From assembly GCA_947475735.1 (NCBI GenBank), contig CANJLQ010000013.1:1-64000 (forward strand): 64,000 nucleotides of DNA. Reading direction: 5' to 3'. The DNA is from Caulobacteraceae bacterium. Its GTDB lineage: Bacteria > Pseudomonadota > Alphaproteobacteria > Caulobacterales > Caulobacteraceae. Positions 46,570 to 49,292 of the stretch are shown in pieces. Position numbers and translations under genes: made by a program. A model generated the notes under the pieces. It made no database searches, had not been told where the DNA came from, and was given only the letters and a program-made list of their open reading frames with translations. The stretch's first letter is position 1; each line of letters starts with the position of its first letter.

Positions 46570-48264
46570 TCATCGCACCATCCAGCTCACCAGCAGCAGA
46601 ACGAAAAGCCCCGCGCTGACCGCCTGCCAGAAGCGAACCGGCTCGCGCTCCATCAGCGACAGGTCGCGGCGGGGCGGGACGGCGGCGGCGCTGCCGCTTT
46701 CGAGGACGTGGATCAGCTCTTCGACATCAGCGAAACGGTCGGCAGGGTCGACGGACAGGGTGCGAAGGATCGCCGCTTCCAGCCAGGCGGGCATGTCGGG
46801 GCGGTGAACCGTCGGGCGGGTCGGTCGATCGAAGCGTATCCGGCTGAAGTCTGTCTCCTGGCCGCTGGGGTATTCGGCGGTGAACAGGCGGTACAGGGTG
46901 ACGCCCAGGGCGTACTGGTCGGTCAGGGCGTCGCCGGAATTGCCGGCGAACATCTCGGGGGCGCGATATCCTGGCGTGCCGGGAGCTTCTGCCTCGGCGA
47001 ACTCCTCGATCCGGGGAAGGCGGGCGACGCCGAGGTCGATCAACTTCAGACCGCCGTTCGATTCCAGGATCACATTGTCAGGCTTGATGTCGCGATGGAC
47101 GATCTTCAGCCGGTGCAGGGCAGCGACCGCGCGCGCGAGGCGGATGGACAGGTCGACGCCCTCGGGGATCGGGAACGGGTCCTCGGCGACGCGGGCGTGC
47201 AGGGTATGCCCGACGTACAGGGGCTGGGCGATATAGAGGCGGCTCTGACGGCCGGGGTCGAGGCTCAGCGTCTTGCCGACATAGGGACTGTCGATGCGCC
47301 GGCCGATGAAGCTCTCGCGCAGGAAGGCTCCGCGCGCGCCGCTCTCGGACAGAAGTTTCGGCTTGGGGAACTTCAGCACCAGCCGTTCGCCGCCCTCGCC
47401 GTCGCGCGCCTGGAACACCCGCGTGTACTTGCCGTCAGAGATCAGACGTTCCAGCAGAAACCCATCGATGCGGTCGCCGGCCGTAGGCACCGCCGGAATG
47501 GGCAAGCCTGCCGCTTCGGCCCCGATGGCGTCCTGATCGACCGCCCCAATGCGGATGACGTCGATGACGATGGCGGTGGCGTTGTCGCGCGTCTCGGCGA
47601 GACCGGCGGCATCGACGATGGCCTGGGCGTCCGCCTCGGGCGACGCGCGCCGAGAAAGCAAGCGCGTCAGTTCCGCCTCCGAGAGGACGCCGTGCGCGCC
47701 GTCGGTGGTCAGCAGCAGCCGGTCATAGGGCTTGAGCGCCACCGTGCTGGTGTCCAGGCGCAGATCCGGCTCGATCCCCAGGGCGCGGTACAGGACATGG
47801 CTGAGCCCCGGCTGGCTGAGGGTGTGGTCTTCGGTCAGGCGCGTCAGCAGGCCGTCGCGGAAATGCCAGGCGCGGCTATCGCCGACGTGCAGCACCGTCG
47901 CCTCGCGCGCCCTCATGACCAGGGCGGTGAAGGTCGTGGCCGCCCCGGCCATGTCCGGATCGGATCGGCCCTTCGCATGGAGCCAGCGATTGTAGCCCGA
48001 CAGCGCCGCCACGCCGGCGGCCGCCACGCCCTTCAGCGGGTTCTGATCGACATAGGCGTCGATGAAGCTGCGGCCCGCGAGTTCCGACGCCACCCGACCG
48101 GCCCTCGATCCACTGACGCCGTCGGCGACCAGGGCGATCATGCCGCGCAGGGCCTGTTCCGAGGGGCTGCCGAGGTGGACGGCACCGAAATCCTGATTGT
48201 CTTTCCGCGGCCCGAGCGCCGTGGCGAACCCTGCCGCGATCTCCAGCTTGCCGTCCGCATCCAT
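46570..48264 (-). CDS. PP2C phosphatase-Ser/Thr kinase fusion with a C-terminal membrane anchor
   Basis: The 564-residue protein has a PP2C-type phosphatase at residues 1-235 (metal motifs DNQDFG, ADGVSGS, VGDSRAW, TTDGAHG, RDNATAIV). A Hanks-type kinase follows at about 260-520 (LKFPKP, IVHRDIKPDN, LIDLGVAR, GTPGYRAPE), with DLG in place of DFG. One C-terminal helix (VSAGLFVLLLVSWMV) anchors it. This bifunctional architecture is known, often near nitrate genes, which are absent here. Both activities appear intact. The start at 48264 has GGGGAG upstream. Confidence 0.92.
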   Translation of the reverse strand: MDADGKLEIAAGFATALGPRKDNQDFGAVHLGSPSEQALRGMIALVADGVSGSRAGRVASELAGRSFIDAYVDQNPLKGVAAAGVAALSGYNRWLHAKGRSDPDMAGAATTFTALVMRAREATVLHVGDSRAWHFRDGLLTRLTEDHTLSQPGLSHVLYRALGIEPDLRLDTSTVALKPYDRLLLTTDGAHGVLSEAELTRLLSRRASPEADAQAIVDAAGLAETRDNATAIVIDVIRIGAVDQDAIGAEAAGLPIPAVPTAGDRIDGFLLERLISDGKYTRVFQARDGEGGERLVLKFPKPKLLSESGARGAFLRESFIGRRIDSPYVGKTLSLDPGRQSRLYIAQPLYVGHTLHARVAEDPFPIPEGVDLSIRLARAVAALHRLKIVHRDIKPDNVILESNGGLKLIDLGVARLPRIEEFAEAEAPGTPGYRAPEMFAGNSGDALTDQYALGVTLYRLFTAEYPSGQETDFSRIRFDRPTRPTVHRPDMPAWLEAAILRTLSVDPADRFADVEELIHVLESGSAAAVPPRRDLSLMEREPVRFWQAVSAGLFVLLLVSWMVR

Positions 48265-48340
48265 GACCTGTCTCCCCGCCACGAAAGAGACTTCACTTCG
48301 TAACTTGGATGCAAGGGCTTGCCGCCCTATATTGATCCCG

Positions 48341-48745
48341 CCGGAGCTTGCTCCGGATATGGCGATAAACGCGCTTGTAATAAGCGGACCGGACCCGGGT
48401 GCGATTCCCGGCGGCTCCACCATTCCTCCTCCGCGTTATCGGCGGGCGATCATGGGGCCGACTAGCATCGACGGACGTGTAAAGAAGACTGCTTTCGCTC
48501 GTCCTGGCCCACCGTATCGGGCCATTTTCTAACTGCGAACGATAACTTCGCTGGAGAAGTCCGTCTCGCCGCGTAATGCGGTTCGTCAGACTTCGAACAC
48601 TTAAGTCCTAGGGGTTCAGATCCCTGGGCGGGGCCCGGAGGGCGCCTGGCAACAGAAGCCCTCCACTCGCCCTCATCAAGGTGCCCTCCTCGTTCTTGAA
48701 AAAGGTGGGCGGGAGCCTGGCAACAGAATCCCGGCACTTTCCCGG
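48341..48745 (+). ncRNA. ssrA: circularly permuted two-piece tmRNA
   Basis: The 3' tRNA half comes first: T-arm CCGGG-TGCGATT-CCCGG, then CGGCTCC and ACCA (48412-48422). The 5' half follows after a short spacer: GGGGCCG (48454-48460), which pairs with CGGCTCC and gives a G3-U70 pair, the alanine identity mark, then ATCGACGG. The tag ORF (48535-48576) reads ANDNFAGEVRLAA and stop. Two copies of GCCTGGCAACAGAA in hairpins (48644 and 48715) suit the downstream pseudoknots. This order is the alphaproteobacterial split tmRNA. The outer ends are estimates. Confidence 0.92.
48535..48576 (+). other. tmRNA proteolysis-tag reading frame
   Basis: GCG AAC GAT AAC TTC then codes A-N-D-N-F, continuing AGEVRLAA and TAA. 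With the tRNA-borne alanine the added tag is 14 residues, AANDNFAGEVRLAA, the same length as the Caulobacter tag AANDNFAEEFAVAA. The first six residues, bound by SspB, and the terminal alanines, bound by ClpX, are kept. Confidence 0.92.
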
Positions 48746-48806
48746 CAAGGCCACTTCCGCCGAACGTCCAGCCCGGCTATCTGTCGCCGCGCTAGCGAGA
48801 GTACCC

Positions 48807-49292
48807 ATGGCCGACGACGTCCAGCCGATCGACGAGATGCAGTACGAGAAGCTCGCGCAGGACGCCCTGCGCGGTGTGATCCGCGCCGCGCTCGAACGCG
48901 CGGCGGGGCCGTCCGGCATCCCCGGCGCCCACCACTTCTACATCACCTTCAAGACCCGGGCCCCCGGCGTGTCGGTGCCGCCCGACGTGGTGGCCAAGTA
49001 CCCTGACGAGATGACCGTCGTTCTGCAGCACCAGTATTGGGACCTGGCGGTCGAGCACGATCTGTTCTCGGTGATGCTGAAGTTCGGCGGCATGCCCAAG
49101 GTGCTGACCGTGCCCTATTCGGCGGTCACGCGCTTCTATGACCCCAGCGTGCAGTTCCTGCTGCAGTTCGAGGCCCCGGAGCCGGTGGCCCAGGCCGTCG
49201 CCGAACTGCCCGCGCCCAAGCGCGCCGACCCGCCGCCGTCCGGCGACGACGGACCCAAGGTCGTCTCGCTGGACCAGTTCCGCAAGAAGTAG
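48807..49292 (+). CDS. sspB: ClpXP adaptor SspB, alphaproteobacterial type
   Basis: The 161-residue protein has the SspB fold pattern (YEKLAQDALRGVIRAALE, HFYITFKTRAPGV, MTVVLQHQYWDL, KVLTVPYSAVTRFYDPSV). A disordered Pro/Asp linker leads to the ClpX-docking tail KVVSLDQFRKK. It captures ssrA-tagged proteins for ClpXP. The gene starts about 60 bases after the tmRNA gene, so tag donor and tag receptor are neighbours here. The ATG at 48807 is the family start; the ORF track begins inside the tmRNA. Confidence 0.93.
   Translation: MADDVQPIDEMQYEKLAQDALRGVIRAALERAAGPSGIPGAHHFYITFKTRAPGVSVPPDVVAKYPDEMTVVLQHQYWDLAVEHDLFSVMLKFGGMPKVLTVPYSAVTRFYDPSVQFLLQFEAPEPVAQAVAELPAPKRADPPPSGDDGPKVVSLDQFRKK

Follow-up and report, generated by a model that had tools for sequence, protein, structure and literature searches.

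The tmRNA encoded by ssrA serves in ribosome rescue. Its cleavage into two stable RNAs has been demonstrated in S. meliloti (PMC2873474) and in Orientia (PMC7335160). Mapping of each piece at its 5' and 3' ends in S. meliloti gave an acceptor piece of 82 nt and a coding piece of 214 nt (PMC2873474), and the Orientia pieces measure about 80 and 240 nt (PMC7335160). An SspB adaptor of alphaproteobacteria was described by Lessner et al. 2007, as cited in PMC3985003.

Here we report on an ssrA-sspB locus within a 64,000-nucleotide stretch of Caulobacteraceae DNA, hereafter the window. The organism is a relative of Brevundimonas, judging by the similarity of its SspB (91% to B. bacteroides). By sequence comparison the tmRNA gene is of a known kind, and the new element at the locus appears to be a labile, family-specific array of 3'-end hairpins.

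The tmRNA gene and its tag adaptor

The identity of both genes is directly supported. A covariance-model scan (cmscan) gave a full-length match to RF01849 (alpha_tmRNA) at 48301-48667 on the forward strand, with 230.1 bits against a gathering score of 50, an E-value of 2e-65 and model positions 1-355 covered; a covariance-model search of the whole genome found this as the sole RF01849 match. RF04321 (tmRNA_permuted) also matched, at 48361-48576 with 121 bits. The gene was laid out as follows.

48301..48667, + strand: ssrA, permuted alpha-type tmRNA gene (RF01849 span from cmscan)
48328-48333, + strand: TATATT promoter-like box within the RF01849 5' flank
48341..48422, + strand: acceptor piece (tRNA 3' half, T-arm, CCACCA end), with the 5' end placed from the 82-nt S. 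meliloti piece
48423..48453, + strand: intervening sequence, presumably lost on maturation, from the model alignment and known two-piece tmRNAs
48454..48667, + strand: tmRNA coding piece of 214 nt, equal in length to the S. meliloti coding piece
48535..48576, + strand: tag reading frame, translated as ANDNFAGEVRLAA*

The order is permuted, the acceptor half (CGGCGGCTCCACCA, with CCACCA at 48417-48422) being encoded before the coding half (GGGGCCG from 48454), and the tag translated from 48535-48576, ANDNFAGEVRLAA*, has the hydrophobic AA tail. From 48301 the Rfam match takes in 5' flanking columns on the promoter side, and the mature acceptor start probably lies near 48341. These features point to a functional alpha-type permuted ssrA gene predicted to yield a two-piece tmRNA. 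ARAGORN, which the first-pass annotation had proposed alongside the covariance model, listed three tRNAs and no tmRNA, and so misses the permuted gene despite its 230-bit Rfam score. On the opposite strand the divergent neighbour (window 46570-48264) encodes a PP2C-type phosphatase fused to a protein kinase (PF13672, PF00069), and its longest open frame extends into the tmRNA acceptor piece.

The downstream gene sspB (48807..49292, + strand) encodes an SspB adaptor of 161 aa that matched PF04386 with an E-value of 2.5e-41 and 141.7 bits against a cut-off of 27. The first-pass annotation had described a permuted two-piece tmRNA gene adjoining sspB, and the two family matches bear this out. One Caulobacteraceae genome carries two adjacent SspB-domain matches (G047:C1:1349201-1350122).

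Synteny was read directly by comparing the positions of RF01849 and PF04386 matches. Among 129 alphaproteobacterial genomes with both genes among the matches listed, 100 have sspB less than 1 kb downstream of ssrA on the same strand, and the median gap from the RF01849 model end to the SspB domain start is 112 bp in the class-level genomes listed; in 10 of the 129 the genes lie on different contigs, which leaves their order undecided. Within the Caulobacteraceae sspB falls within 1 kb in 88 of 112 genomes and at 1.7-3.9 kb in 13 more. In some genomes the order persists with further genes intervening, and in a minority ssrA and sspB are separated. Conservation of the linkage, which the first-pass annotation had wished to see compared across the Caulobacterales, is found there and extends further: the ssrA-sspB order is ancient and class-wide, not peculiar to the window, and offers a simple testable handle on any coupling of tag production and tag reception. 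The Caulobacter transcriptome papers found in our literature search do not mention sspB.

Hairpin copies and the inverted third strand

Between the tag reading frame and sspB lie the following elements.

48636..48664, + strand: hairpin 1, the 3' end of the coding piece, with left arm GGAGGGC (48637-48643), core GCCTGGCAACAGAA (48644-48657) and right arm GCCCTCC (48658-48664)
48679..48689, + strand: inverted third strand (INV) AGGTGCCCTCC, the reverse complement of the hairpin-1 left arm plus GCCT, with 11 pairs including one G-U
48707..48735, + strand: hairpin 2, a copy of the tmRNA 3' hairpin with the same 14-nt core (48715-48728) and arms CGGGA/TCCCG that differ from those of hairpin 1 and are still complementary
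48754..48781, + strand: putative sspB promoter, with CTTCCGCC at 48754-48761 and GCTATC at 48776-48781, corresponding to a conserved Caulobacteraceae block

The two hairpins share the exact 14-mer GCCTGGCAACAGAA, hairpin 2 being 71 bp further on and ending 71 bases before the sspB start, and a pattern search of the whole genome found the 14-mer nowhere else. Because 214 nt counted from 48454 end at 48667, just past hairpin 1 and coincident with the end of the Rfam match, hairpin 2 probably lies downstream of the RNA end and hairpin 1 alone probably belongs to the mature tmRNA. Both of the repeated hairpin loops that had been noted after the tag ORF are present, but the second is not part of the expected mature molecule. 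The predicted fold of the 230-nt array is not unusually stable (z -1.27).

Repeat distribution could be observed directly across genomes. In the Caulobacteraceae 55 of 179 loci carry 2-5 core copies after ssrA, most at a spacing of 70-78 bp (period about 75 bp); the 179 loci are a combined set in which some genomes are possibly represented twice, and the copy numbers are lower bounds, as short-read assemblies may collapse repeats. About a third of the genomes of the family have surplus copies and about two thirds have none. The repeats occur in several genera, e.g. Brevundimonas, Caulobacter and Phenylobacterium, with five copies in P. kunshanense. Larger spacers or an additional hairpin within the repeat unit were seen in G016 (L002), G076 (L092) and G115 (L117). 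Thirty ssrA loci examined in other alphaproteobacteria each have a single hairpin at the same place and lack surplus copies, and an exact-pattern search of 192 class genomes found, outside the family, at most one exact core at the ssrA locus, with the exception of G292. This genome carries two exact CCTGGCAACAGAA copies 2.3 kb apart (G292:C1:992219 and 994521), the first at ssrA; the RF01849 search listed two matches in it, and no SspB hit is among the matches listed. A dispersed mobile element was rejected as an origin of the repeats: across 119 Caulobacteraceae genomes the 14-mer core occurs at the ssrA locus, and the only other hits, one each in G075 and G043, fall within what looks like coding sequence. 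The literature searched does not mention the repeated 3' hairpin.

Copy number is labile, with 25 changes against 30.6 for shuffled labels on a 109-genome tree built from the tmRNA body alone. Several single-hairpin Brevundimonas carry arms like those of window copy 2 (TCGGGA/TCCCGGC), which fits a past deletion between copies, after which the tmRNA would end in the downstream hairpin.

INV-type stretches are 8-12 nt long, near-perfect reverse complements of the left arm plus GCCT, and mostly lie 35-42 nt past the core start (38-42 nt in 68 of 91 units). Many units carry such a strand, which can pair with the left arm in place of the right arm; INV-bearing units span 11 genera. A good INV accompanies 26 of 39 multi-copy and 5 of 72 single-copy Caulobacteraceae genomes. 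Left arm and INV are directly seen to co-vary, with 540 pairs against a mean of 461.5 and a maximum of 488 in 10,000 re-dealings (91 units, distinct arm pairs), a test that is optimistic in that the units were chosen for their INV match and the sequences are related. The match could also persist through inverted-repeat correction during replication, and the co-variation is no proof of RNA function.

The CAACAGAA loop is kept in 173 of 179 first copies compared with 62 of 80 surplus copies. Where the right arm of a surplus copy differs from that of copy 1, it still pairs with the left arm of its own copy: 92 pairs were counted, and 20,000 re-dealings gave 71.6 on average and 89 at most. Measured across Caulobacteraceae and other alphaproteobacteria, T makes up 71-82% of positions 3-4 after the hairpin-1 stem and 50-60% of position 5, falling to 21-27% beyond. 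A loop change from GGCAACAG to the self-complementary GGCGCCAG is common to surplus hairpins in two genera and occurs in no first copy (loci L132 in G105, L112 in G110, L117 in G115, L114 in G078 and L003 in G092).

Transcription of sspB and readings of the array

In the 90 bases before sspB, the Caulobacteraceae share a block located 3' of the hairpin or hairpins and 5' of the ATG, composed of CTTTCGCC or CTTGCGC followed by GCTATC or GCTAGG; the words CGCTA, TTGCG and GCTAT occur there about five times above shuffled sequence. We take the block to resemble the Caulobacter housekeeping promoter. A generic sigma-70 scan, with a consensus of the E. coli type, called no promoter at the block. 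Because this promoter-like block lies between the hairpins and the ATG, separate transcription of sspB is suggested and simple co-transcription disfavoured, while readthrough may still occur. The hairpins with their short T-run also occupy the place expected of a terminator. The earlier proposal that linkage could allow joint regulation of ssrA and sspB gains little here, since sspB is preceded by a conserved promoter-like motif of its own.

We give about an even chance to the reading that the array consists of 3'-end or terminator hairpins insulating ssrA from the sspB promoter, the surplus copies being labile tandem units. Hairpin 1 and its short T-run would probably terminate or protect the ssrA transcript besides ending the coding piece. 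The Caulobacteraceae 3'-end block, made up of the hairpin and the inverted third strand, would have become a tandem unit of about 75 bp whose copy number often changes, and hairpin 2 would be a surplus copy, most likely a weak back-up terminator or 3'-end barrier before the sspB promoter. We infer this termination and insulation, like the separate transcription of sspB, from sequence. In favour of the array reading are the identity of the two genes and their class-wide synteny, the T-rich positions after the hairpin-1 stem, the position of the surplus copies between ssrA and the conserved sspB block, the pairing kept by diverged arms, and the copy-2-like arms of single-hairpin Brevundimonas. 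Against it stand the relaxed loop of the surplus copies, the short T-run, which is weaker after them, and the genomes that keep the ssrA-sspB order with intervening genes; moreover, a surplus copy is dispensable, because about two thirds of Caulobacteraceae genomes lack one. A stronger version, which we regard as rather unlikely, would have a copy-variable array of alternative hairpins set both tmRNA 3'-end formation and ssrA-sspB transcriptional coupling and let the tmRNA swap its 3' hairpin by recombination.

A close rival, to which we grant a serious chance short of even, regards the surplus hairpins as neutral by-products without a role at the RNA level: the long inverted repeat of left arm and INV would provoke replication slippage that duplicates and deletes units of about 75 bp, and exchange with copy 1 by recombination would keep the surplus units similar. 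The very labile copy number, the association of a good INV with the multi-copy state, the relaxed surplus loops and the loop variants that surplus copies often share with copy 1 of the same genome (all five are CCTGCCAAC in G101) agree with this, but diverged surplus copies keep complementary arms and INV holds a nearly fixed position across 11 genera. The same strand might instead form a two-state RNA switch, in which the left arm pairs with either the right arm or INV and the choice governs how the 3' end is processed or whether transcription runs on into sspB. The pairings covary and are mutually exclusive, and fold prediction gives mixed ensembles in several genomes (G057, G070 and G071 among them) and favours INV pairing in G063 and G076; yet the model for the window gives probabilities of 1.00 for left arm with right arm and 0.00 for left arm with INV, most genomes lack INV, no consistent T-run follows it, and we know of no ligand or sensor. 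We think such a switch unlikely. That the repeats are attachment-site scars of mobile elements integrating at the ssrA 3' end is very improbable, even though integration at tmRNA genes is common (PMC11915505) and many copies combine a conserved right half with a divergent left half: the period is mostly constant at about 75 bp, the units are without genes, and the inserts in G014 and G022 hold frames recognised from their translations as MCP-like, alpha/beta-hydrolase-like and pyruvate-kinase-like. No integrase was recognised in these two inserts.

Comparison with known systems

The repetition of the 3' hairpin makes this housekeeping RNA locus a variant specific to the family, and natural copy-number differences among close relatives make the effect of a hairpin array directly testable. 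With the alphaproteobacterial two-piece tmRNA (RF01849) the window locus shares the full-length match, permuted order, 214-nt coding length, ANDNF...LAA tag and 3' hairpin with a CAACAGAA loop; it differs in adding a surplus 3' hairpin copy and an inverted third strand downstream. The SspB protein, with a Pfam score far above the cut-off and its gene adjoining ssrA, the arrangement seen in most of the class, shows no notable difference from the alphaproteobacterial adaptor. Like intrinsic or tandem terminators, the hairpins lie between two genes and have a GC-rich stem with a short T-rich stretch behind it; they differ from such terminators in the highly conserved loop, the shortness of the T-run, the failure of a standard consensus terminator scan to call either window hairpin, and the probable place of hairpin 1 within the mature RNA.
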